A stretch of 64,000 bases of DNA from Kiloniellales bacterium. Lineage in GTDB: Bacteria > Pseudomonadota > Alphaproteobacteria > Kiloniellales > JAKSBE01. The stretch is taken from assembly GCA_030066685.1 (NCBI GenBank), contig JASJBF010000001.1, positions 310,001 to 374,000 on the forward strand, written 5' to 3'. Below, piece by piece: positions 45,208 to 58,679 of the stretch. Numbering within the stretch: position 1 is the stretch's first letter; each line of letters opens with the position of its first letter. Under the pieces are notes generated by a model. It did not search any database. It was not told the origin of the DNA and was given only the letters and a program-made list of their open reading frames with translations. The position numbers and the translations under genes are program-made.

Positions 45208-45688
45208 TCGTTCAACCTTCGCGTCGACACCGCGGCAGGAAGCGGTGAACCTTCTGCCACAGGTGCCTGCTTCGCGCAATCCGCGGTTTCGCACCACGGC
45301 GTTCCAGGCCCCGAAGGCCTTCGCCCGCCGCTCCCGGGACGGGACGGCGCCCGCTGCGGCGCTGCCCGGAGTCCTCCGCGAGGCGCCGAAACCCTACGCC
45401 GGCAAGCCCGCCCTTCAAACGTCCAGAGCACTCAGAGAAAGGCCGCCGCCCGGCGAGCCCGGAGGCCGCTCTACAGAAAGCCCTGATTCATTTCGATCTT
45501 TCCCGAGGCTATCTGGCTGTTTTTCTTGATTCAATTCAATTACGTGTACAGATTATTCTGCATTTTTATAGAAGCTTAACAATTAGTTTCTTCTTAAGAA
45601 TTTCATGTTTGATGGTAGTTCTGCAAATAAGACTTGCAACTATTTGTCTTTATTTGTTCGTTTTTCGGTTGCGGAGGGAGGTACTCCA
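45208..45688. promoter_or_regulatory. divergent intergenic region with AT-rich promoter stretch
   Basis: This 481-base gap separates the divergent mltB and first TadG-like genes. The left 260 bases have normal high GC and no supported gene. From about 45495 to 45665 the sequence is strongly AT-rich, with many A/T runs, very unlike the rest of the window. It likely contains the promoter for the TadG-like gene and could be a target for an AT-binding silencing protein. The final GGAGGGAGGT (45673-45682) is an unusually strong ribosome binding site for ATG 45689. Confidence 0.45.
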
Positions 45689-46972
45689 ATGCGGTTCCCG
45701 ATGTTCGCAAGAGCGCGCTCGGCCCTGCATCGCTACAAGCAGAACGAGGAGGGCACGGCCATCGTACTCCTCGGCTTCGCGGTCTTCGTCCTGGTCGGCG
45801 CGGCCGGCCTGGCCTTCGATGCCGGGCGCGGCTACATGCTCAACGCCAGGCTGAGCCAGGCCGTGGACGCCGCCGCCCTGGCCGGCGGCCGCTCGCTCAG
45901 CATCGGCAGCGGCGGCGATTACAAGGCAGTTATCAAGAAGTACTTCAAGGCCAACCTGCCCGACGGCTACATGGGCGCCGAAATCCCGGATCCCATCATC
46001 GAGCTGAAGGGCGATGGCGACGAGATCGAGGTCGTCGCCACGGCCACGGTGCCGACCACCCTGATGCGGGTCCTGGGCTCCAAGAGCATGAAGATCGACG
46101 CCCGGGCCGTGGTCCACCGGGCGGTCAAGGGGCTGGAAGTCGCCCTGGTGCTCGACAACTCAGGCTCGATGTCCGGCGGCAAGATGACCGACCTCAAGGA
46201 TTCCTCCAAGCTCCTGGTCGACATCCTCTACGGCGACAACGACGTCGTCGAGGACCTCTACGTCTCCATCGTGCCCTTCACCGGCCGGACCAACCTCAAA
46301 GGCCACACCCAGGTCCATCCGGTCGAACCGCCGCCGCCGAGCTCGACCTACATCTGCCTCGACATGCGCGGCGGGAACTTCGCCGAGAACGACGCGCCGC
46401 CGGTCACCAATCCCTTCGACCACTTCTCCAACGGGCCCTACACCTGGGAAGAGAATTCCACGAAGCACAAGGACAGGGTCTGTCCCAAGGCGGCGATCCT
46501 GCCTCTGGTCCAGAGCAAGTCCACGGTCAAGACGGCGATCAACGGCATGAAGGCCAAAGGCTGCACCCGCTACGACATCGGCACGGTCTGGGGCTGGCGG
46601 AACATCTCGCCCCGCTGGCAGGGGCTCTGGGGCGGCTCCCCGGGCAGCCTGCCATTGGCCTACGAAGAGGCCGACATGGAGAAGGCGATCATCATCATGA
46701 CCGATGGCGCCAACACGCCGGACTGCCTGAAGGATGTCCAGACGGAGGAGCAGACCGAGCAGGCCTTCTCCCGGATCTGCGCGGACATGAAGGCCAACGG
46801 TATCGTGATCTACACCATCACCTTCAAGCTCGACGATCCCGACACCAACGACCTTTTCCGCACCTGTGCCTCCGGTCAGGAGCGCTACTTCAAGTCGCCC
46901 TCCAGCGACGCGCTGGAGACCGCCTTCACGACGATCGCCAACGATCTCTCGACCCTGCGGCTGAGCCAGTAG
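45689..46972 (+). CDS. TadG-like pilus-assembly-type protein with vWA domain, copy 1
   Basis: A 427-residue protein. Residues 20-70 match TadE/TadG N-termini: EEGTAIVLLGFAVFVLVGAA is a single membrane span, then FDAGRGYMLNARLSQAVDAAALAGGR. A vWA domain follows, with an intact MIDAS D156-x-S-x-S in VLDNSGSMSGG, and the later ITMTDG-like IIIMTDGANTPDC. The span plus outward vWA domain fits the proteins that decorate Tad pili or act as adhesins, but no other tad gene is present. ATG 45689 is chosen for its strong ribosome binding site; the frame is open from 45605. It is closely related to the next two genes. Confidence 0.88.
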   Translation: MRFPMFARARSALHRYKQNEEGTAIVLLGFAVFVLVGAAGLAFDAGRGYMLNARLSQAVDAAALAGGRSLSIGSGGDYKAVIKKYFKANLPDGYMGAEIPDPIIELKGDGDEIEVVATATVPTTLMRVLGSKSMKIDARAVVHRAVKGLEVALVLDNSGSMSGGKMTDLKDSSKLLVDILYGDNDVVEDLYVSIVPFTGRTNLKGHTQVHPVEPPPPSSTYICLDMRGGNFAENDAPPVTNPFDHFSNGPYTWEENSTKHKDRVCPKAAILPLVQSKSTVKTAINGMKAKGCTRYDIGTVWGWRNISPRWQGLWGGSPGSLPLAYEEADMEKAIIIMTDGANTPDCLKDVQTEEQTEQAFSRICADMKANGIVIYTITFKLDDPDTNDLFRTCASGQERYFKSPSSDALETAFTTIANDLSTLRLSQ

Positions 46973-47335: not shown

Positions 47336-47488
47336 GCGCATGTAATTCTATATATTACTACCACAAATACCTAGATTATTTACTGCATGTTAAGAGATAA
47401 GGAGTGAAGTGTTTCTCTGCAGAGGGCCTTTTCACCAAATTTATTGGGCCTTTTATTTCCTTATTCTGGGGCGGGAGGCCCTGAAGAC
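47336..47488 (+). promoter_or_regulatory. AT-rich leader of TadG-like copy 2
   Basis: An AT-rich stretch (most marked 47340-47400 and 47430-47466) precedes copy 2, comparable to those before copies 1 and 3. A GCGGGAGG ribosome binding site lies at 47471-47478. I see no certain promoter boxes. Confidence 0.4.
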
Positions 47489-48766
47489 ATGCGCTCGTTC
47501 TTTCAATCCCGGTTTCGCCCGGCGGTGGGCCGCTTCGCCAAGGCGGAAGACGGTACGGCCATCGTCCTTCTCGGGTTTTCGGTCTTCGTCCTTGTCGGCG
47601 CGGCCGGCCTGGCCTTCGACGCCGGGCGCGGTTACATGCTCAACGCCAGGCTGAGCCAGGCCGTGGACGCCGCCGCCTTGGCCGGCGGCCGCTCGCTCAG
47701 CATCGGCGGCGGCGGTGACTACAAGGCGATCATCAAGAAGTATTTCAAGGCCAACCTGCCCGACGGATACATGGGCGCCGACGTTCAGGAGCCCACGATC
47801 ACGCTCAGCACCGAAGGCGACGAGATCGAGGTCTTCGCCACGGCCACGGTGCCGACCACCCTGATGCGGGTTCTGGGCTCCAAGAGCATGAAGATCGACG
47901 CCCGGGCCGTCGTCCACCGGGCGGTCAAGGGTATGGAAGTCGCGCTGGTGCTCGACAACTCAGGCTCCATGTCCGGCAGCAAGATGGGCGACCTCAAGGA
48001 CTCCTCGAAGCTCCTGGTCGACATTCTCTACGGCGACAACGAGACGGTCGAAGACCTCTATGTCTCGCTGGTTCCTTTCTCGGGCCGGACCAACGTGAAG
48101 GACCAGGTGGAGATCCATCCGACGTCCCCGCCGAACCCGGACTACGTTTGCCTCGACATGCGCAGCGGGACCTTCGCCGAGGACGACACGCCCCCGGCGA
48201 CAAGTCCCTTCGGGCACTTCTCGAACGGCGAATACACCCACGAGAACGATCCCGGCAAGTACAAGAGCAAGGTCTGTCCGAAAGCCCAGGTTACGCCGCT
48301 GATCCAGCCCAAGACGTCGGTCAAGTCCGCGATCGACGCCATGCAGGCGAAGGGCTGCACCCGCTACGACATCGGTTCGGTGTGGGGCTGGCGCAACATC
48401 TCGCCCGAATGGCGGGCTGTCTGGTCCGGCTCCAGCGCCAGCCTGCCCCTGGACTATGAAGAGGCCGACATGGAGAAGGCGATCATCATCATGACCGATG
48501 GCGCCAACACGCCGGACTGTCTCCAGGACGTCCAGACCCAGGAGGAGACCGAGCAGGCCTTCGCCCGGATCTGCGCCGATATGAAGGCCAACGGCATCGT
48601 GATCTACACGATCACCTTCAAGCTCGACGATCCCGACACCAACACCCTGTTCCGCGAATGCGCCTCGGGCGCGGAGCGCTACTTCAAGTCGCCCTCGGGC
48701 GACCAGCTGGAGGCCGCCTTCACGGCGATCGCCAACGACCTCTCGACCCTGAGGCTGAGCCAGTAG
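47489..48766 (+). CDS. TadG-like protein with vWA domain, copy 2
   Basis: A 425-residue paralogue of copy 1 with the same plan: a short basic start (MRSFFQSRFRPAVGRFAK), one membrane span with EDGTAIVLLGFSVFVLVGAA, the GRGYMLNARLSQAVDAAALAGG segment and a vWA domain with intact MIDAS DNSGSMSG and IIIMTDGANTPDC. Over roughly 145 bases (from 45790, and from 47590 here) the DNA differs from copy 1 at about seven positions, pointing to recent duplication or gene conversion. ATG 47489 is preferred over 47444 because of the nearby ribosome binding site and alignment with copy 1. Confidence 0.88.
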   Translation: MRSFFQSRFRPAVGRFAKAEDGTAIVLLGFSVFVLVGAAGLAFDAGRGYMLNARLSQAVDAAALAGGRSLSIGGGGDYKAIIKKYFKANLPDGYMGADVQEPTITLSTEGDEIEVFATATVPTTLMRVLGSKSMKIDARAVVHRAVKGMEVALVLDNSGSMSGSKMGDLKDSSKLLVDILYGDNETVEDLYVSLVPFSGRTNVKDQVEIHPTSPPNPDYVCLDMRSGTFAEDDTPPATSPFGHFSNGEYTHENDPGKYKSKVCPKAQVTPLIQPKTSVKSAIDAMQAKGCTRYDIGSVWGWRNISPEWRAVWSGSSASLPLDYEEADMEKAIIIMTDGANTPDCLQDVQTQEETEQAFARICADMKANGIVIYTITFKLDDPDTNTLFRECASGAERYFKSPSGDQLEAAFTAIANDLSTLRLSQ

Positions 48767-49018: not shown

Positions 49019-50296
49019 ATGAAGATCGCGGCGACTCAACGACTGCGGGACCGTCCAGCAAGCTTCCTTCGCGACGAGGGGGGCTCCGGCCTCGCTCTGA
49101 TCGCGTGGTCGATGCTGACCTTGGCGGCCGCCTCGGGCCTCGCTTTCGATGCCGGCCGCGGCTACCTCATCAAGGCCAAGCTCGGCCAGGCCGTCGATGC
49201 CGCAGCGCTCGCCGGCGGCCGGGCGCTGGCCGCCCGGGACGGCGCCCGCTACGAGTCCCAGATTATCAAGTATTTCAGGGCGAACTTCCCCGACGGCTAT
49301 CTGGGCGTCGCGGTCGCCGAGACCGAGCTCGACATCCGGTTGCGGGGCGAGAAGATCGAGGTCACCGCCTCGGTCGAGGTGCCGACGACGTTGCTGCGGA
49401 CGGTCAACATCCGGGGCTTCACCGTCTCGGCCAGCGCAGCGGTCAACCGCACGGTGCGAGGCCTGGAGATCGCCATGGTGCTCGACAACTCCGGTTCCAT
49501 GAATGGTCGCAAACTCAGAGAGTTGAAGGCAGCCGCGGATATTCTGGTCGAAGCCCTCTACGGCGACGGTGGGACGGCCGACAACGTCTACGTGTCCCTG
49601 GTGCCCTTCACCGCCCGCGCCAACGTCAAGGGCCAGGACAAGGTCCACCCGGGCAAGTCGCCCAACAAGGACTACGTCTGCTTCGACGTGCGTCCCGGCA
49701 CCCACGCGGTGGGTGACAGCAATCCCGTCGACATGCCCTTCGAGCACTACTCCGGGACCCTCTCGGCCGACAGGAACCCCAAGGCCTATGCCGACAAGAT
49801 CTGCCCGAAATCGGCCGTTCAACCCCTCACACGAAAGCGGGCCGAGGTCGAGGGCGCGATCAGGGACATGAAGGCGAAGGGCTGCACCCGCTACGACCTC
49901 GGGGCGGCCTGGGGCTGGCGCGCGCTCTCGCCCAAGTGGCGTGGCTTTTGGCAGGGCGTGGAGTTCGAGCAGCCCTTCGAGTACGGCGAGCAGGGCCTCT
50001 CCAAGGCGGTCATCATCATGACCGATGGCGAGAACACGCCCAAGGACTGTGCCCTCGATCTGGAGAGCAAGCAGGAAACCGAGGCGATGTTCGTCGAGGC
50101 CTGCCAGGGGATGAAGACCGAGGGCATCATCGTCTACACCATCACCTTCCAGGTCGAGGACGAGACCACCAACGCGATCTTTGAGAGCTGTGCGTCCGGA
50201 AGGGCCCGGGCCTTTCGCTCGCCCGACGGCGCCGAGCTGATCTCGGCCTTCGAGGAAATCGCCGGCGATCTCTCGACCCTGCGCCTGGTGCAGTAG
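49019..50296 (+). CDS. TadG-like protein with vWA domain, copy 3 (diverged)
   Basis: A 425-residue paralogue with the same order of parts: the span ALIAWSMLTLAAASGLAF, then DAGRGYLIKAKLGQAVDAAALAGGR, and a vWA domain with MIDAS DNSGSMNGRK and IIIMTDGENTPKDC. It shares the GCTRYDLGAAWGWRALSPKWRGFW block with the other copies but is considerably diverged, so it is the oldest branch of the tandem family. No clear intrinsic terminator follows. The next gene, a different vWA protein, begins 150 bases later. Confidence 0.88.
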   Translation: MKIAATQRLRDRPASFLRDEGGSGLALIAWSMLTLAAASGLAFDAGRGYLIKAKLGQAVDAAALAGGRALAARDGARYESQIIKYFRANFPDGYLGVAVAETELDIRLRGEKIEVTASVEVPTTLLRTVNIRGFTVSASAAVNRTVRGLEIAMVLDNSGSMNGRKLRELKAAADILVEALYGDGGTADNVYVSLVPFTARANVKGQDKVHPGKSPNKDYVCFDVRPGTHAVGDSNPVDMPFEHYSGTLSADRNPKAYADKICPKSAVQPLTRKRAEVEGAIRDMKAKGCTRYDLGAAWGWRALSPKWRGFWQGVEFEQPFEYGEQGLSKAVIIMTDGENTPKDCALDLESKQETEAMFVEACQGMKTEGIIVYTITFQVEDETTNAIFESCASGRARAFRSPDGAELISAFEEIAGDLSTLRLVQ

Positions 50297-50446: not shown

Positions 50447-51787
50447 ATGCGGGGTTGCTTTCTGCGGGCTTTACTGGGGCCGGCCTTGGCCGTCGCGCTC
50501 GCGTCTCCCTGCGGGGCCGAAGAAGCGCAAGACCTCGAATTCTTGCAGAATCGCCTGAGCAAGATCCTGGAGTTCGAGCCGACGGGCCGCGAAATCTCCT
50601 GGCGCAACCCGGGCACCGGCAACGACGGCCTCGTCATGGTGGAGCGCACCTATTTCCTGGACCCGAAGACGCCTTGTCGCGATTTCATCCTGACCTTGGA
50701 CCGTGGCGGCAGCGCGCCGCAGATTTTGCGCGGCACGGGATGCCGCAGCGAGGATGGCGACTGGCGGCTCGGCGCCGACGGCGAGCCGACGTTGTTGTCC
50801 GCAGTCGAAAGAGGCTGGGTCCAGGCGGGGCCCGAGTTCGACCGGGTCTACGATGACGAGCTGGTGCCCGACGACATCGACGGCTTTGAATTTGCCGACA
50901 AGGCCTTGCCTGCCGAACCCGCGCCGCCCTCGGAAAAGCTGGCCTTGCAGGACCTGGTGGCCGATGCCCGGCGCCTCGACGATTCAATCCTCCAGGATGC
51001 CACCGAAGAGATAGGGCCGGACGACCTGGCTTCGGCGGAGCTTGCGGCAGAGCTGAACGCTACGGCGGACCCACAGGCCCAAGCCGTTATCGCCCTGCCC
51101 GCCACCGGGCTTCTGCCCGAGCCAAACTGCACCGACTATCCTGTCGGGGGCCCGTCGGTCGAAGCCGAGGAACTCGACCTCGTGTTCCTGCTGGACACCA
51201 CCTCCAGCATGCGGTCCGAACTCGGCGACCTCAAGGCCGGCGTCATGTCCTCCGTCAGGGTTCTGCTGCGGATGGTCTCCAGCCTCAACATCGGCTTCGT
51301 GGCCTTCCGCGACCGGAACGATTCCTACGTGACCAGCGCCTTCCAGCTGACCCCGATGACGGAGGACAGCCTGAGGCGGCTCGAGATCTTCGTCGAGGGC
51401 CTCAAGGCCGGCGGCGGCGGCGATCGTCCCGAGGCCATCGACAAGGCGATGGGCGTGGCCAAGGACATGCCCTGGCGGCCGACGGCCCTTGGCCAGATCG
51501 TCGTGATCGGGGACGCCCCGGCGCACGCCGGCGCTCGGGGCCGGACCCTCATCATGGCCGAGAACTTCCGCGGCGACGTGCCCTCGAGCGCCGCTCGGCG
51601 CAAGGTCTCCGCAGTCTATACCGGCTCCGCGCGTCGGCGGGGTAGTCGGAAGTTCTTCCATCATCTCGCCAAACACGGCGGCGGTTGCTTCACGTCCGAC
51701 CCGCAAACGCTTGTCGAGAACGTGCTGCTCTCGGTCCTGGGTCGGGGACGGTCCAGGCCGGCAGAAGCCCTGCCGGGGCCCTCTTGA
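50447..51787 (+). CDS. secreted protein with 17-kDa-surface-antigen-like domain and vWA domain
   Basis: A 446-residue exported protein. A signal peptide ends near CGA-EE (residue 24). Residues 30-110 (ILEFEPTGREISWRNPGTG, TYFLDPKTPCRDF, GTGCR) resemble the RT0821/Lpp0805-type surface antigen domain. A disordered acidic region leads to a vWA domain from about residue 243 with MIDAS D250-T-T-S-S. The vWA core (IGFVAFRDRNDSY, GGGGDRPEAIDKAMGVAKDM, VIGDAPAHAG) is strikingly similar to the anchor-vWA protein at 56300-57286. It therefore looks like a periplasmic or surface member of the same system. Confidence 0.82.
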   Translation: MRGCFLRALLGPALAVALASPCGAEEAQDLEFLQNRLSKILEFEPTGREISWRNPGTGNDGLVMVERTYFLDPKTPCRDFILTLDRGGSAPQILRGTGCRSEDGDWRLGADGEPTLLSAVERGWVQAGPEFDRVYDDELVPDDIDGFEFADKALPAEPAPPSEKLALQDLVADARRLDDSILQDATEEIGPDDLASAELAAELNATADPQAQAVIALPATGLLPEPNCTDYPVGGPSVEAEELDLVFLLDTTSSMRSELGDLKAGVMSSVRVLLRMVSSLNIGFVAFRDRNDSYVTSAFQLTPMTEDSLRRLEIFVEGLKAGGGGDRPEAIDKAMGVAKDMPWRPTALGQIVVIGDAPAHAGARGRTLIMAENFRGDVPSSAARRKVSAVYTGSARRRGSRKFFHHLAKHGGGCFTSDPQTLVENVLLSVLGRGRSRPAEALPGPS

Positions 51788-52077
51788 CGGCCTGGCAACC
51801 GGAACCGATGTTCCTACGCAACGCCGGTAATATGCGGGTCGCATAGAGGACACAAGCGGCCCAACGTCGGAGCGCGCCCTATTTCTTATATATTTCAATA
51901 AATTACGCTGGAGACTTTCGCCGCCAATGGAGCGCCGTTGCCGTGCGACCGCCGTCCGAAGCCGAGGTCTTGGTCACAAGGATGCGACTGCCGCCGCTAG
52001 GATTTAGATGGTATATTTGCCGGTAAAGCGGGCTTCTTGCCCGCCGTTTGCCGTGCACGACAAAAAGGGGTTGTCTC
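51788..52077 (+). promoter_or_regulatory. intergenic leader with long hairpin
   Basis: The 290-base gap contains an AT-rich patch (51880-51905) and, at 52021-52053, a hairpin: GCGGGC/GCCCGC with a 5-base loop, extended after a 2-base bulge by CGGTAAA/TTTGCCG with one G-T wobble. It lies 24 bases before the chosen TTG start of the next gene. No T tract follows, so it could act as a leader structure affecting translation. No other gene is seen. Confidence 0.4.
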
Positions 52078-52734
52078 TTGGCTAAGACGGTTCGATCGGC
52101 GTTTCATCCAGGCACGAACAAACAGTCCCCGGACAGGATCTTGGCCGTGGTCGCGCTCAGCTTGGCCCTGCTCGTCCCGGCGAGCCTTCAGGCCCAGGAG
52201 GACGCGGCGGCCGCGGACCGGGCCTATCTGGAGAAGCGCCTCAGGAAGATCCTGGAGTTCGAGCGGACCGGCGCCGAGGTCGTCTGGACCAATCCCGAGA
52301 CCGGGAACAGCGGCAAGATACAGCTGATGCGCACCTATTTCCTCGATCCCAAGACGCCCTGCCGGGACTACCTGCGGACCATCGATTCCACTGCCGGCGA
52401 GCCGGTGTCGGTGCGAGGGACTGGCTGCCGCGAGGCGACCGGCGGCTGGAAGCTGACCGAGGATTCCAAGCCGAAGCGTACCGTCAAGCGCGGCGATAAG
52501 GGAAGCAAGACGGCGGCAGCCACCCCGGGCGGAAGCGATCCGACCGCCAAGGCGCCGGCCGGTGCCGGGGGCGCGCCTGATGGCAAGAAGCCCAAGCCCC
52601 CTTCTGCTAAGAAGAAGAAGCCCGCCGCGCCGGCCAAGGCCGTTGCCAAGGCCCCGCCCCCGCCGCCGAAGATCTCGGCGCGAGTGCCGAGCCGGCCGCC
52701 GGAATGGGAGGCCGCCGACGACAATGCCTACTAG
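52078..52734 (+). CDS. exported protein with 17-kDa-surface-antigen-like domain and basic Pro/Lys tail
   Basis: About 218 residues from TTG 52078 (AAGGGG upstream); TTG 52048 is possible. A signal sequence (ILAVVALSLALLVPASLQAQ) precedes a domain homologous to that of the 50447-51787 protein: ILEFERTGAEVVWTNPETG, RTYFLDPKTPCRDY and GTGCRE. From about residue 135 the protein is low complexity, rich in Lys, Pro and Ala, ending in basic-proline repeats that may contact cell wall or partner proteins. Its last 11 bases overlap the kinase gene, so the two are probably translated together. Confidence 0.78.
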   Translation: MAKTVRSAFHPGTNKQSPDRILAVVALSLALLVPASLQAQEDAAAADRAYLEKRLRKILEFERTGAEVVWTNPETGNSGKIQLMRTYFLDPKTPCRDYLRTIDSTAGEPVSVRGTGCREATGGWKLTEDSKPKRTVKRGDKGSKTAAATPGGSDPTAKAPAGAGGAPDGKKPKPPSAKKKKPAAPAKAVAKAPPPPPKISARVPSRPPEWEAADDNAY

Positions 52735-54916
52735 CTACGAGGCCGATGCCGGCGCCCTGTCGCCCTTCGCCGGCGGGGACCCCAGGGACCTCGCGCCCGG
52801 GGCCGACGTCGACGGCTTTCAGATCCTGGGCATTCTCGGCCGCGGCATCTATGGCGTGACCTACCTGGCGCGGGAAGCGACCCAGGGCGCGAAGGCGGCA
52901 ATCAAGCTCTTCCAGCCGGACCCCGGCAGCCTGCAGCCCCTGGCCGCCGATGACGATCCCGGCGCCTCGGCGCTGGCCGCCTTTCGTCGCGAGGCGGCGA
53001 TCCTCGGGCGCCTGGACCATCCCAACATCGCCCGCTGCCGCGATTTCCGCGACAGCCGCGAGCGCCCCTACATCGTGCTCGAGCCCGAAGAGGGGCACAG
53101 TCTCGCGGCGGCCCTGGTCGCCGTGCCCGAGGCCTTCAACGAGGACCGGCTGCATCGAATCCTGGTGCCCCTGCTGGATGCACTTTCTCATTTGCACGCC
53201 AAGGGGATTTTGCATCGGGACATCAAGCCGTCGAACATTCATCTGCGGCCGGACGGCAGCCCAGTCCTGCTCGACTTCGGCGCTGCAGGCGAACTCGTCG
53301 GCTCCTCGGGCAAGACGGATCCCGTGAGCTGCCTGACACCGGGCTTCGCGGCACCGGAGCAATACCAGAAAGCTGGTCACGAAGGCCCCTGGACCGACAT
53401 CTACGGCTTGGCGGCCGTGGCCTATCGGGCGGTGACCGGCAAGATCCCGCCGGACGCCCGGGACCGGCTGAACGGCGCGAAGATGCTGCCGGCCCGAAAG
53501 CTGGGCGCCGGCCACGCGTCGCCGGCCTTCCTGGCCGCCATCGACTGGGGTCTCGCCCTGACGCCAGGCAAGCGGCCGCAGAGCGCACAGGATTGGACCA
53601 AGGCCCTGGCCGTCGCCGCCGGTGAGCCGGGCAAGCAGGACCTGACGCCGGCCGCAGAGTCTGGCGAAGCCGAAGAGGCGGCCAAGGACGCCGATCTGGA
53701 CGACGTCCCTCCGACCCAGCGCATCAAGCGCGAGCCGGGCGTGAGCGACACCTTCTACGTCGAGGGGCCCCGGGCTCAGGTCGCCGGCCCAGGCACCGCG
53801 CGGCCTCGGGCCAGCCGGACGCCGGTCGGTCTGATCTTCGGGATCTTGTTCATCGTCGGCCTGACCGGTGGCGGCTGGGCCTATTGGCAGTGGACGGTCC
53901 TTCAGAACAAGACGGAATGGACGGTCGACCCGGCCGGCCGGGGCGACACCGCGACCATCGAAGCGGCGCTCGCCCAGGCCAGGGACGGCTCGACGATCCG
54001 GATTCAACCCGGCACCTACGAGGAAAGCCTGGTCCTGTCGCGTCCGGTGACGATCGAGGCGGTCTCGGCGGACCCCGCGGACACCGTGATCGCGCCGAGC
54101 AGCGGCAGCTGCCTGACCGCAACCGCGGAGACTGGCAAGCTGTACGGCCTGACGCTCCGCAAAGCGCCCGGCGGCGGCGGCGAAGGCTGCGTGCTTCTGG
54201 TCGGCAGCAATCTGACCCTGGCCAACAGCGTGATCGAAGCCGAGGGCACGCCCGCCGTCATCCTGCACAGCGGGGGCGCCGCGACGCTCAAGGACCTCGA
54301 GATCAAGGTCTCGGGCGGCGTGCCCGCGGTGGTCGTCTCCAACGGCGCCCGGGCCCGCATGTCCGACAGCAGCATCGCCGGCGAGGCCGCGGTCGGCCTC
54401 CTGGTGCGCCGGGGCGCAGCGCCCGAGGTCATCGGCAACGAGATCAAGGGGACCAAGCGCGCGGGCATGATCCTGGAAGCGGGCGCGGCCGGTCGCTTCG
54501 AAGGCAACCAGATCATCCAGAACGCCGGCACCGGCGTGGTGATCCGCGGCGGCTCGCGACCGGTCTTCGCCAAGAACCGGATCGAATCAAACGGCGAGGC
54601 CGGGGTCTTCATCTACGAGGGCGCGCGCGGGGAGCTCGACAGCAACGTCGTGACCCGCAACGGCGGCTCCGGGATCATCGTCGGTGAGGGCGCAACCCCG
54701 CTTCTTCGCAAGAACGAAGTGCAGGACAACGGCGACCACGGGATCCTGCTCCTGGAGCGGGCCGGTGGCCGGCTCGAGGGCAACCGGGTCAAGTCCAACA
54801 AGAGGTACGGTCTGGCCATCAGCGTCGATGCCGCGCCGGACCTGAGCGAGAATGAGGTGACCGGAAACGCGAGCGGTCAGACAAAGAAAGGCAAGATCGC
54901 GACGGAGGGCAAATGA
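52724..54916 (+). CDS. transmembrane Ser/Thr protein kinase with extracytoplasmic beta-helix domain
   Basis: A 730-residue protein. Residues 32-300 are a Hanks-type kinase with glycine loop GRGIYG, Lys61 in AAIK, Glu90, catalytic HRDIKPSN (164-171), DFG (184-186) and APE (210-212), all intact, so it should be active. A juxtamembrane region with Thr-Gln and acidic clusters precedes a single span (about 367-389). Beyond it, residues about 398-725 show the repeating G-N-x-I/V pattern of a right-handed parallel beta-helix (pectate-lyase/NosD-like), a likely ligand- or polysaccharide-sensing domain. The neighbouring FHA proteins are natural readers of its phosphothreonines. Confidence 0.88.
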   Translation: MPTSYEADAGALSPFAGGDPRDLAPGADVDGFQILGILGRGIYGVTYLAREATQGAKAAIKLFQPDPGSLQPLAADDDPGASALAAFRREAAILGRLDHPNIARCRDFRDSRERPYIVLEPEEGHSLAAALVAVPEAFNEDRLHRILVPLLDALSHLHAKGILHRDIKPSNIHLRPDGSPVLLDFGAAGELVGSSGKTDPVSCLTPGFAAPEQYQKAGHEGPWTDIYGLAAVAYRAVTGKIPPDARDRLNGAKMLPARKLGAGHASPAFLAAIDWGLALTPGKRPQSAQDWTKALAVAAGEPGKQDLTPAAESGEAEEAAKDADLDDVPPTQRIKREPGVSDTFYVEGPRAQVAGPGTARPRASRTPVGLIFGILFIVGLTGGGWAYWQWTVLQNKTEWTVDPAGRGDTATIEAALAQARDGSTIRIQPGTYEESLVLSRPVTIEAVSADPADTVIAPSSGSCLTATAETGKLYGLTLRKAPGGGGEGCVLLVGSNLTLANSVIEAEGTPAVILHSGGAATLKDLEIKVSGGVPAVVVSNGARARMSDSSIAGEAAVGLLVRRGAAPEVIGNEIKGTKRAGMILEAGAAGRFEGNQIIQNAGTGVVIRGGSRPVFAKNRIESNGEAGVFIYEGARGELDSNVVTRNGGSGIIVGEGATPLLRKNEVQDNGDHGILLLERAGGRLEGNRVKSNKRYGLAISVDAAPDLSENEVTGNASGQTKKGKIATEGK

Positions 54917-55025
54917 GGCGGGCCGGGTATTCGGCGGAGGCAATCTGGACGTGCGGCAGACGCCGGCTGGAGCGACGCGACCCGGATCGCGGCGGCGTTC
55001 CGGCCATCTTGTTCGGGAGGGCGGG

Positions 55026-55463
55026 GTGAAGACGGTCGTTGTTGGGCGCAGTCCCTACGCCGACGTGGTCCTGGCCGACGCCTCGGTGGCTCGGCGTCAT
55101 GTCGAGGTCGTGATCACCGACGACGGCCGCTACTTCGTGACCGACTGCGCCACGGAAACGGGGTGCTGGCGACGGGTATCGGCCGATCAGGGGCGCGACC
55201 ATTGGGAGAAGCTGCGCCAGAGCTTCGTATCGATGGAGGATCACCTCAGACTTGGCGACCATCACTGCACCCTGAAGGATCTGCTGCGCGACGTCGACCT
55301 CCGCGACTCCGCCGAGACCGGCCCCGGTGGCGGCGGTGCCGGGCGCGGCGGCGATGCCCACGGCGGCGGCGCGGCGGGCGGCGCCGACCGTCGCATCGAG
55401 AGCCTGCGCGGCCGGGTCGAGCGTGATCCCGTGACCGGCGAGATCATTCCCAAGAGGCTGTAG
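55026..55463 (+). CDS. FHA-domain protein 1
   Basis: A 145-residue protein from GTG 55026 (GGGAGGGCGG upstream). The FHA core has VVVGRSPYADVVLADASVARRHVEV, with Gly-Arg, Ser and Arg-Arg-His, which bind phosphothreonine in this family. The usual Asn-Gly-Thr element is replaced by ATETGCWRR, so affinity may differ. A Gly-rich linker and a conserved-looking end (RVERDPVTGEIIPKRL) follow. The frame is open from GTG 54951, which would add a basic 25-residue stretch. Its stop is two bases before the MotA/TolQ-like gene. Confidence 0.82.
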   Translation: MKTVVVGRSPYADVVLADASVARRHVEVVITDDGRYFVTDCATETGCWRRVSADQGRDHWEKLRQSFVSMEDHLRLGDHHCTLKDLLRDVDLRDSAETGPGGGGAGRGGDAHGGGAAGGADRRIESLRGRVERDPVTGEIIPKRL

Positions 55464-55465
55464 GC

Positions 55466-56293
55466 ATGGCTGAGAGCGTTCTACCCCATCAGGATCTCGA
55501 GCAACGGGAGCGACCGCGGCACCACTACAGCCGCAACATCTTCGCGCACCTGCTGATCCTTTTCGGCGCTCTGATCGCCGGCCTGCTGACCATTCTCCTG
55601 TTCCACAACGTGCTGCCCGACACCGCGGCCGAGATCCTGATCGACCGCGACCGGGAAAGCTATCCCTTCACCGTGCAGAACGTGATGTGGATCGTGTTCT
55701 TCCTGGGCCTGGGGGAGCTGGTGGTCCGGGTTCGCGACGCCATCGCGGAACGCGGCCAGGTGCAGGAGGGCTATCTGCCGGAGGACGAGCGCACCATCCT
55801 CCAGACGCCCGAACTGCGCCAGATCTACAACCACGCGCGTCTCGTCTCCGGGCCCGGCGGTGTCGCCGAGGGCCGCTTCTTGCCGCGCCTGATCCAGCGG
55901 GTGGTTCTGCAGTTCCAGACCAGCCGCTCGATCGACCAGGCGAACTCCCTCCTGAACTCCAGCCTGGAGCTCTGCCTGCACGAGATCGACCTGCGCTACA
56001 ACATGGTCCGCTACGTGGTCTGGGTGATCCCGACCCTCGGCTTCATCGGCACCGTCGTCGGCATCTCCCTCGCCCTGGCCTACGCCGGCTCGGTCGACCT
56101 CCAGGACCCGACCCTGCTCGCCGAGCTGACCAAGCGCCTCGGCGTGGCCTTCAACACCACCCTGCTCGCGCTCTTCATGTCGGCGATCCTGGTCCTGGTC
56201 CAGCATGTCGTGCAGGCGCACGAGGAGCGCGCCCTGAACCTGGCCGGCCAGTACTGTCTCGACAATCTGATCAACCGCCTCTACGAGGAGTGA
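55466..56293 (+). CDS. MotA/TolQ/ExbB-type proton-channel protein
   Basis: A 275-residue inner-membrane protein with four predicted spans: about residues 25-47, 70-90, 183-206 and 225-250. The third contains IPTLGFIGTVVGIS, the defining P-x-L-G-x-x-G-T-V-x-G pattern of MotA/TolQ/ExbB proteins, and the fourth GVAFNTTLLALFMSA, also family-typical. The roughly 90-residue cytoplasmic loop between spans 2 and 3 is the usual site of signal or torque coupling. In known systems five such subunits surround two MotB/ExbD subunits and use the proton gradient. The adjacent gene encodes a matching partner, six bases downstream. Confidence 0.9.
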   Translation: MAESVLPHQDLEQRERPRHHYSRNIFAHLLILFGALIAGLLTILLFHNVLPDTAAEILIDRDRESYPFTVQNVMWIVFFLGLGELVVRVRDAIAERGQVQEGYLPEDERTILQTPELRQIYNHARLVSGPGGVAEGRFLPRLIQRVVLQFQTSRSIDQANSLLNSSLELCLHEIDLRYNMVRYVVWVIPTLGFIGTVVGISLALAYAGSVDLQDPTLLAELTKRLGVAFNTTLLALFMSAILVLVQHVVQAHEERALNLAGQYCLDNLINRLYEE

Positions 56294-56299
56294 TCGGCG

Positions 56300-57286
56300 A
56301 TGCACTCGCGCCAGAGGCGGAACCTCGAGGTCATCAGCATTTCGGCGCTGGACCTCTTCGCCTCGGCCCTCGGCGTCTTCATCCTGATGTCGGTCGTCCT
56401 GTTCCCCTACTACCTCCGCCAGCCCTCGACGGAGCAGGAGTTGCAGGGCGCGCGCGCCAATCAGGCCGCGTCGGGGGTCTCGCTCTCCGAAGCGCGCCAG
56501 GTCGCGGAGGACGCCCAGGACGCCATGGCCGAGGCCGAGGCCCGGCGCAGCAAGGCGCGTGACGAGCTGCAGCGCGCCGAAGCTTCCCTGGCCGAGGCCG
56601 AGCAGGTGAGACTGGTTGCCGCCCGCCGGGTCAAGAAGGAGCCGGAGAAGAAGGCCGCCGACGACACAGAGAAAGGGCGGCTCAATATCGGCGACCTGGA
56701 CATCGTCTTCGTGGTGGACACCACCAGCAGCATGAAGCGGGAGATCGCGGATGTTCAGGCGAGCCTCCTCGGGATCATCCGGGTGCTGCACCGCCTGGCG
56801 CCCAGTCTCAACGTCGGCTTCGTCGCCTATCGGGATCGGAGCGACGCCTACCTGACGCGCACCTTCCAGCTCGCTCCCATGACCGGCAACAATCTCAGGC
56901 GGATCCAGGCCTTCGTCGAGCGCCTGAGGGCGTCCGGCGGCGGCGACGTGCCGGAGGCCGTCGACAAGGCGCTCGGCGTGGCCAAGAACATGCCCTGGCG
57001 GTCGACCGCCCTCGGCTGGATCATCGTGGTCGGCGATGCCCCGGCGCACGCCGGCGCCCAGAGCCGGACCTTCGACATGGCCCGGAACTTCCACGCCTAC
57101 GCGCCTGCCGGCGTGGTTCAGCGCCGGATCTCGGCGATCTTCACAGGCAACGAAAGGCGGCGGAGCAGCCGGAGGTTCTTTCAGCAGCTGGCCAAGTCCG
57201 GCGGCGGCGACTACGTCAACCACCGGGGCCGCATCATCGAGAGCGTCCTTTTGTCGATCCTGACCCAAGAGCCCTCGTCGTCGTGA
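56300..57286 (+). CDS. MotB/ExbD-like membrane anchor fused to a vWA domain, protein 1
   Basis: A 328-residue protein. The N-terminus has a single span, SALDLFASALGVFILMSVV (residues 15-33), with Asp18 at its edge, where ExbD, TolR and MotB carry their proton-binding Asp; PYYLR follows. A helical Ala/Glu/Arg-rich segment (about 55-112) likely forms a coiled coil. The C-terminal vWA domain has MIDAS D140-T-T-S-S and VGFVAYRDRSDAY, nearly the same core as in the secreted protein at 50447-51787. If topology follows ExbD/MotB, the vWA domain lies in the periplasm, where the known families have OmpA-like or TonB-binding domains. Confidence 0.85.
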   Translation: MHSRQRRNLEVISISALDLFASALGVFILMSVVLFPYYLRQPSTEQELQGARANQAASGVSLSEARQVAEDAQDAMAEAEARRSKARDELQRAEASLAEAEQVRLVAARRVKKEPEKKAADDTEKGRLNIGDLDIVFVVDTTSSMKREIADVQASLLGIIRVLHRLAPSLNVGFVAYRDRSDAYLTRTFQLAPMTGNNLRRIQAFVERLRASGGGDVPEAVDKALGVAKNMPWRSTALGWIIVVGDAPAHAGAQSRTFDMARNFHAYAPAGVVQRRISAIFTGNERRRSSRRFFQQLAKSGGGDYVNHRGRIIESVLLSILTQEPSSS

Positions 57287-57308
57287 TGTTGTTCCAAGGG
57301 CGGAGGAT

Positions 57309-57689
57309 ATGAGCGACTATCACAATCGTCTGAATTCGGACCTCGAGACCGGCTGGTGCCTCGAGGGCAGCGACGGGGAGGACAAGAAGGTTCGCCTCTT
57401 GATCGGCGACACCCAACTCGGCCGCGCGACCCTGGGCCTGACCCTCGGCCGCCACGGCGCGCTCTGCGACCTGGTGGTCGAGGATCCCACGGTTTCGCGC
57501 CGGCATCTGCGGATCGGCCGGGGCAGCGAGGGGCTCTTCGCGGAGGACACCAATTCCCTGAACGGCACCCTGCTCGACGGCGCCAGGTTGCGCCCCTTCG
57601 AGCCGGTCAAGCTCTACGAGGGCGCCCAGCTCACGCTCGGCGCCACGGTCTTGACCTTGAGCCGGGTCGCCGAACCGGCCTTCGCCTAG
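57309..57689 (+). CDS. FHA-domain protein 2
   Basis: A 126-residue, essentially one-domain protein with a canonical FHA site: LTLGRHGALCDLVVEDPTVSRRHLRI (in parts GR, SRRH) and then EDTNSLNGTLLDG with the Asn-Gly-Thr element. It should bind phosphothreonine peptides. No membrane span is seen, so it is cytoplasmic. CGGAGG precedes ATG 57309. It lies between the two anchor-vWA genes (22 and 15 bases from them), as expected for a connector between the kinase and the membrane complex. Confidence 0.9.
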   Translation: MSDYHNRLNSDLETGWCLEGSDGEDKKVRLLIGDTQLGRATLGLTLGRHGALCDLVVEDPTVSRRHLRIGRGSEGLFAEDTNSLNGTLLDGARLRPFEPVKLYEGAQLTLGATVLTLSRVAEPAFA

Positions 57690-57704
57690 ACCGGAGGGCG
57701 CGCC

Positions 57705-58679
57705 GTGCAGCGGCCGTCGCGCGAGACCTCGATCTTCAACATGTCGGCGCTCGACCTGCTGGCCATGGCGACCGGCACCTTCGTGCTGATCGTGGTGATT
57801 CTGCTGCCCTACTACCGCAAGGAGTTCGACGCCCACGCCGAGATCCTCGACCTGAAGGCCGCGACCGAGACCCAAAGCGCGGAGGCCGAGGATATCTTGC
57901 AGGCCGCGGTTGCCGAGGCCCGAGCCGCCGCGCAGATGAAGTCCGAGGCCGAGCAAATGCGCAACGCCGCGGCCGAGGCCCGGGCCGCCGCCGCCTCGCT
58001 GCGCCAGGAGGCGGACCAGCTCGACGCGCAGGGCGGCAAGACGGAAAAGAAGGCGGAGAAAAAGAACGCCACCCTGGTTCCCAAGACCATCGAGAAGCTG
58101 GACCTGATCATCGTCATCGACACCACCTCCAGCATGGTGGAGACCTTGAAGGACCTGCGCCTTTCGATCCACGGCCTGATCCGGATCCTCGAGCGCCTGG
58201 TGCCGTCCCTGCGGATCGGCGTCGTCGCCTACCGGGATCACGATTTTGGTACCTGGGTCACGCGCAGCCTGCAGCCGACCTCCACCGAGCGCCAGCCGAA
58301 GGAGATCTACGATTTCGTCGGCCGCCTGAAGCACGCGGCCCGAGGCGGTCCGACCCCGCGCGAGGCCGTCCATGCCGGTCTCAACCGCGCCGTTTCAATG
58401 TCGCTGCGGCAAGACGCACAGCAGACCATCATTCTGGTCGGCGACGCCGGCCCGCATAAGGAAAAGGAGAGGTCCACCCTGCTGCTGGTGAAGCGCTTCG
58501 CCGAAGGCGGCCCCAACCGCAACGTCAGCGCGCACTTCGTGGAAACCCGCTCCTACCGGTCCTTCGGCACCAACGATAGGAACTACTTCAAGAAGCTGGC
58601 CGAGGTGGGCCGCGGGGAGTTCAGCGACCAGCGAGGCAGCATGATCGAGAAAGTGCTGCTGGCCGTCTTGAAGGAATAG
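57705..58679 (+). CDS. MotB/ExbD-like membrane anchor fused to a vWA domain, protein 2
   Basis: A 324-residue protein with the same plan as the 56300-57286 protein: the span SALDLLAMATGTFVLIVVIL (residues 14-33) with Asp17 and then PYYRK, an Ala/Glu-rich coiled coil (about 43-118) with repeated EAR and EAE words, and a vWA domain with MIDAS D139-T-T-S-S. The vWA part is more diverged (RIGVVAYRDHDFGTW). The start is GTG 57705 after CCGGAGGG. Two unequal anchors with one channel gene suggest a heteromeric 5:2 complex or two alternative outputs. Confidence 0.85.
   Translation: MQRPSRETSIFNMSALDLLAMATGTFVLIVVILLPYYRKEFDAHAEILDLKAATETQSAEAEDILQAAVAEARAAAQMKSEAEQMRNAAAEARAAAASLRQEADQLDAQGGKTEKKAEKKNATLVPKTIEKLDLIIVIDTTSSMVETLKDLRLSIHGLIRILERLVPSLRIGVVAYRDHDFGTWVTRSLQPTSTERQPKEIYDFVGRLKHAARGGPTPREAVHAGLNRAVSMSLRQDAQQTIILVGDAGPHKEKERSTLLLVKRFAEGGPNRNVSAHFVETRSYRSFGTNDRNYFKKLAEVGRGEFSDQRGSMIEKVLLAVLKE

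Follow-up and report, generated by a model that had tools for sequence, protein, structure and literature searches.

The question raised by positions 50447-58679 of a 64,000-nucleotide stretch of a Kiloniellales genome (contig JASJBF010000001.1, positions 310,001 to 374,000; the whole stretch is referred to as the window) is what kind of machine could be formed by a MotA/TolQ/ExbB-type channel protein encoded next to a Ser/Thr kinase, two FHA proteins and proteins bearing von Willebrand factor A (vWA) domains. The cluster comprises eight open reading frames (products P0001 to P0008), all on the + strand and located where a sequence-only reading of this DNA had placed them. The domains named in that reading were recovered by Pfam: 17kDa_Anti_2 plus VWA_4 in P0001, 17kDa_Anti_2 in P0002, Pkinase plus a right-handed beta-helix in P0003, FHA in P0004 and P0007 (1e-16 for P0007), MotA_ExbB in P0005 (5e-11), VWA_4 in P0006 (2.5e-10) and VWA in P0008, the last at 7e-5, slightly under the curated cut-off. 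The intergenic gaps within 55026-58679 measure 2, 6, 22 and 15 bases in gene order, within the 2-22 bases claimed, and the ATG of the P0003 gene overlaps the stop codon of the preceding P0002 gene. The answer favored here, held to be slightly more probable than its negation, is a phosphorylation-gated 5:2 proton motor that drives periplasmic vWA heads; the parts of the motor, their conservation and their adjacency are well supported, and the switching and the output are proposed.

A sequence search against solved structures gave no significant relative (best E 0.087), and fold comparison was used in its place. The AlphaFold2 model of P0005 (predicted local distance difference test score, pLDDT, 91) has TolQ, ExbB, ZorA and MotA as top structural matches, TolQ being the first (Z 14.3, 204 residues, 3.6 A) and ZorA scoring Z 10-11; high Z scores are easily reached by helical bundles, and here the genuine motor chains rank together in first place and align over most of P0005. 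An alignment of 38 relatives shows no variation at T196 and T232, which coincide with the pore threonines of TolQ and ExbB in the last two membrane helices. In the channel tree P0005 belongs to a clade separate from TolQ, ExbB and MotA, the branching order among this clade, TolQ/ExbB and MotA being unsettled because the branches are long. No TolR/ExbD Pfam match occurs among the eight cluster proteins. The sequence-only reading had itself raised the prospect of an ordinary TolQ or ExbB with its own R/D partner nearby, and this identity is rejected by the tree and by the lack of a TolR/ExbD match. Sequence and model together support P0005 as the channel (A) subunit of a 5:2-type motor. Two other channels were seen in passing. 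The window genome encodes a further ExbB-like protein (L153 7457-8215, G000 contig 24) that is far from TolQ and MotA and has no recognizable anchors of the P0006/P0008 family nearby, and a distant homolog on the Anabaena plasmid pANACY.03 (L148 7662-9062) is flanked on one side by type III-B CRISPR genes and on the other by a viperin gene, and is possibly defense-linked.

The partners of the channel are probably P0006 and P0008, each of which opens with a short positively charged stretch followed by a single membrane helix. The Asp of this helix (D18 in P0006, D17 in P0008), of ExbD/MotB type, is invariant in 37/37 aligned anchors, as are Asp140 and Asp246 of the vWA metal site (MIDAS); the alignment provides the unbiased count of the membrane Asp, since a regular-expression count presupposes that residue. 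In the model of P0006, residues 11-39 form a helix and residues 44-111 a long coil, and the vWA domain is integrin-like. Conserved Arg/Lys residues ahead of the anchor helix point to a cytoplasmic amino terminus and, by the well-established positive-inside rule, the coil and vWA domain of both proteins are predicted to be periplasmic. Neither helix has the SHLS motif of TolA/TonB on direct inspection. In one gammaproteobacterial branch one vWA head lacks the SxS of the metal site and the other retains it, which fits an unlike pair. These features support P0006 and P0008 as two different Asp-bearing (B) partners of ExbD/MotB type with a predicted vWA output domain. The MotA_ExbB-type A subunit with its fold, the pore threonines and the Asp-helix B subunits with their amino termini inside are the features of a 5:2 motor, and the identity that the sequence-only reading gave to the channel and the two anchors is borne out by fold, pore threonines and membrane Asp. 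A remote relative encodes Asp-helix/coiled-coil anchors with heads unlike vWA (L055 3094-3873 and 3471-4643), and the output head of the rods may be exchangeable.

The association of this motor with FHA proteins and a kinase is conserved and is not a chance neighborhood. The order 17kDa_Anti_2, kinase, FHA, channel, anchor/vWA, FHA, anchor/vWA recurs in seven other genomes, some of the loci being truncated where a contig ends or having no kinase domain, and is also found in further named records and in other families; the genes are not scattered in other genomes, scattering being the outcome that the earlier reading had set against itself. A scan of 84,980 species genomes for the channel gave 366 relatives, and the wide picture is based on the best 80 of these. 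According to the record titles these 80 span six phyla (Alpha- and Gammaproteobacteria, Latescibacterota, Binatota, Gemmatimonadota, Rhodothermota, and Balneolota), although single phylum placements may be misbinned because nearly all relatives are metagenome assemblies. In the wider channel clade a same-strand FHA gene lies directly upstream of the channel in 77/81 loci with upstream room. Among the 39 loci with 8 kb on each side, at least two FHA genes occur in 37, an anchor in 38, an anchor with a model-recognized vWA domain in 28, a kinase in 32 and a PP2C phosphatase in 17. The FHA association is not built into these counts because the loci were picked via the channel alone; related genomes are not independent. 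The comparison set of 33 ordinary channel loci was made up of the PF01618 genes that scored best in the same order, plus the others of the window genome. None of these loci has an FHA, kinase, PP2C or anchor gene within about 1.5 kb, nor does any occur in 15-kb stretches around the window genome's four other channel loci. The system is rare, since among 398 evenly sampled Pseudomonadota genomes the window alone scored high, with two remote matches besides. A conserved TPR-CHAT (caspase-like) protein is encoded next to the two vWA anchors in a gammaproteobacterial version of the cluster (L122 4153-7263 and 16 loci like it).

The core of the motor has been described before. A "second family" of TolQ-like motors, the TPH-vWA motors of the Idiomarina type, has been published with a TolQ homolog, unlike pairs of Asp-helix/vWA partners, no TolR and a function that is unknown (Mol Biol Evol 2025, msaf138; PMC12204202). 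The window type shares with them the TolQ-like channel, the unlike Asp-helix/vWA pair and the absence of TolR/ExbD, and adds two FHA proteins, the beta-helix kinase and a 17kDa_Anti_2 protein; in that paper the word kinase is absent and the single "FHA" match is the name FhaC. A distant sister group (L057-L063), in which the channel and the Asp-helix/vWA anchors are accompanied by TPR and FGE/PEGA proteins and no FHA or kinase is recognized, is probably the published family. The sequence-only statement that no motor with vWA, kinase and FHA had been described consequently holds in part: a vWA motor is on record, and the part that appears new is the kinase/FHA/phosphatase wiring, since no description of a system with channel, vWA, FHA and kinase was found in the open full-text literature (preprints and most subscription papers lie outside this scope).

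The cluster belongs to none of the better-known systems compared, namely TolQR/ExbBD, Zorya, Agl-Glt and the type VI secretion system (T6SS). With TolQR and ExbBD it shares the A-subunit fold, the pore threonines and the partner-helix Asp; it differs from them in its separate clade, in partners that end in vWA and not in a TolR/ExbD fold, and in the lack of TolA, TonB and Pal. The Agl-Glt machinery of Myxococcus has the proton motor AglRQS with two different ExbD-type partners and the FHA protein GltG (PMC3169522), and CglB is its vWA adhesin in the literature cited in PMC12204202. Proton motor, two unlike partners, an FHA protein and vWA are thus common to both; however, GltG is one large FHA/TonB protein, whereas the cluster encodes small, soluble FHA proteins and has its vWA domain fused to the motor rod, and no kinase is listed for Agl-Glt. 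Neither P0004 nor P0007 has a predicted membrane segment, and both match only FHA-type models in Pfam, so they are not GltG-type proteins with a TonB region and membrane segment. FHA, vWA and kinases are also combined in the Arn network of the archaellum (FHA protein ArnA, vWA protein ArnB, kinases ArnC and ArnD), which acts on motility; unlike in the cluster, its vWA protein is soluble, the network regulates archaellum expression (PMC5300886), and it is not known to have a proton-channel partner.

How could phosphorylation reach the motor? Phospho-Thr is what FHA domains recognize, frequently with a preference for Ile/Val/Leu or Asp at position +3. The kinase P0003 has intact catalytic motifs (HRDIKPSN, DFG, and AAIK) and one membrane segment between the kinase domain and the beta-helix; in a scanned gammaproteobacterial relative, an FGE-type domain takes the place of the beta-helix. 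A motif of the form Thr-x-x-Ile/Val around T331 (DDVPPTQRI) is present in 10/10 relatives, which are not independent, against a mean of 0.19 and a highest value of 3 in shuffled sequences; by its sequence T331 is a conserved putative FHA ligand. P0004 (FHA1) carries a second candidate in its C-terminal tail. The motif [ND]Px[TS]Gx[IVP] (NPxTGEI), mostly 3-6 residues from the end, occurs in 70/75 FHA1 proteins and in 0/117 other FHA proteins of the loci, and its Thr137 would likewise be a conserved FHA ligand if phosphorylated. P0007 (FHA2) is equipped as a reader, with the phospho-Thr contacts GR, SRRH, and LN retained in 12/12 relatives. A trypsin-like peptidase fused with an FHA domain was noted in SAR86 and Latescibacterota forms of the cluster (L093 16003-17337, L115 5630-7291).

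In the proposed mechanism, five copies of P0005 would surround one P0006/P0008 pair, and proton flow would turn the rods and hence the vWA heads. The heads may grip a periplasmic or outer-membrane partner, for which P0002 is the candidate in the window cluster. That the heads are adhesin-like modules which the motor moves or loads, as the sequence-only reading proposed, stays conjectural; their predicted location is periplasmic, and no gene for export or for an adhesin of the outer membrane is conserved alongside the vWA rods. The beta-helix ectodomain of the kinase would sense a wall or envelope signal, upon which the kinase would phosphorylate its own linker Thr331 and/or Thr137 of the FHA1 tail. 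FHA2 and FHA1 would next dock onto the channel from the cytoplasmic side, thereby switching the motor, and in many relatives the adjacent PP2C phosphatase would reset the switch.

Several observations weigh against this mechanism. In the window clade, FHA1 carries Ala where SRxH has its Ser, and some FHA1 tails carry Ser for Thr (n=2) or Pro at +3 (n=4), a poor fit to a strict FHA ligand. In two window-clade genomes of one genus (L047 1539-2915, L048 6075-7361) the kinase domain is deleted, with an end stub, PPTVR[IV], the membrane segment and the beta-helix kept, and the L050 kinase has lost its catalytic residues (Lys to Arg, HRD to HCD, DFG to DFE), again with the Thr motif and beta-helix kept. 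Activity of a P0003-type kinase is therefore not always needed, and the retention of the T331 motif beside a lost or damaged kinase means that a second kinase or a different role must be allowed for. No PP2C gene adjoins the window cluster, and some remote anchors lack vWA. A broader proposal goes beyond the window: such loci might form a distinct, multi-phylum class of envelope machine. A Ser/Thr kinase-FHA-PP2C phosphorelay would gate its 5:2 proton motor by way of the conserved C-terminal NPxTGEI phospho-tail of a small FHA adaptor, and the paired vWA heads in the periplasm would deliver the work or grip. This proposal is put forward tentatively, its chances being somewhat below even. If true, this would be the first 5:2 motor clade found wired to eukaryote-like Ser/Thr phosphorylation, and would provide a control hypothesis for a motor family whose published description gives no phenotype (PMC12204202), with kinase T331 and FHA1 T137 as the two residues at which switching can be directly tested.

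The same parts could be wired in reverse, the channel and vWA rods acting as a sensor of envelope tension or of a ligand, FHA1 reading a proton leak or rod movement, and the kinase, FHA and PP2C proteins relaying the signal inward. Such wiring would account for the tighter bond of FHA1 to the channel (77/81) than of the kinase (32/39), and for the loss of the kinase domain from loci that keep channel, rods and FHA proteins. It is nevertheless unlikely, as no output gene (transcription factor or cyclase) is constant across the loci, the invariant proton-path residues suggest real ion-driven work, and the kinase, through a periplasmic domain of its own, has a separate input.

Less probable still is a Zorya-like conflict or anti-phage system, with a motor that would detect disturbance of the envelope and an alarm raised by the kinase together with its associated proteins. 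The distant ZorA fold and 5:2-type channel, weak ZorA/ZorB model matches, a kinase domain that matches defense kinase models (as kinases generally do), the CHAT protein beside some relatives and the Anabaena homolog in a CRISPR III-B/viperin stretch all lean this way. However, neither a nuclease nor any other effector is revealed by Pfam among the proteins of the window cluster, no ZorC/ZorD-like gene is present, the rods bear vWA in place of a peptidoglycan-binding domain and the channel lacks the long ZorA tail; the flanks are housekeeping genes with no mobile element or tRNA seen, and gene order is stable across families.

The T6SS threonine phosphorylation pathway consists of PpkA, Fha, PppA, and TagR, TagR being the FGE-type counterpart. 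That the cluster is a side branch of this pathway or of some other secretion system, to which the channel would be accessory, is very improbable: a transmembrane Ser/Thr kinase, FHA reader, PP2C and FGE-type sensor domain are indeed shared by the pathway and the cluster with its relatives, but the pathway controls a contractile injection machine without a proton motor, TssC was matched in 4/14 carrier genomes (some incomplete), never in the cluster, and not in the other 10/14, complete carriers such as G182 suggest carriage without a T6SS, and Pfam finds no secretion component among the eight proteins. The gated motor with vWA output remains the favored account of the features collected in Table 1.

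Table 1. Genes and candidate functional residues of the cluster (window coordinates).
Feature	Position	Strand	Basis
P0001, exported, 17kDa_Anti_2 + vWA; probably a genus-restricted accessory	50447..51787	+	Pfam; elsewhere only L045
P0002, exported, 17kDa_Anti_2; candidate periplasmic partner	52048..52734	+	Pfam; locus comparison
P0003, Ser/Thr kinase (cytoplasm), membrane segment, right-handed beta-helix (periplasm)	52724..54916	+	Pfam, topology, intact motifs
Kinase linker Thr331 codon (DDVPPTQRI), putative FHA-docking phospho-site	53714..53716	+	Motif in 10/10 relatives
P0004 (FHA1), small FHA protein just upstream of channel	55026..55463	+	Pfam; 77/81 loci
FHA1 tail Thr137 codon (VERDPVTGEIIPKRL), family-wide C-terminal motif	55434..55436	+	70/75 FHA1 proteins
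P0005, MotA/TolQ/ExbB-type channel (A) subunit, four membrane helices	55466..56293	+	Pfam, model, alignment
P0005 pore threonine codon T196	56051-56053	+	
P0005 pore threonine codon T232	56159-56161	+	
P0006, motor rod (B1): Asp membrane helix, coiled coil, predicted periplasmic vWA	56300..57286	+	Pfam, alignment, model
P0006 membrane Asp D18 codon	56351-56353	+	
P0007 (FHA2), FHA protein with complete phospho-Thr binding residues	57309..57689	+	Pfam; 12/12 relatives
P0008, motor rod (B2): Asp membrane helix, coiled coil, predicted periplasmic vWA	57705..58679	+	Pfam, alignment
P0008 membrane Asp D17 codon	57753-57755	+	

Upstream of the cluster lie three TadE/G-like vWA genes in a row (45605-46972, 47444-48766, and 49019-50296, + strand); they were considered as motor substrates or core members and rejected, as they adjoin the cluster only in the genus of the window. 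P0001 was likewise rejected as a core part and is probably a genus-restricted accessory: its gene is separated by 260 bp from the next one and was found in a single other genome, of the same genus (L045). The core is for these reasons taken as seven genes, 52048-58679, beginning with P0002, which is present in every locus of the window clade that has room for it.

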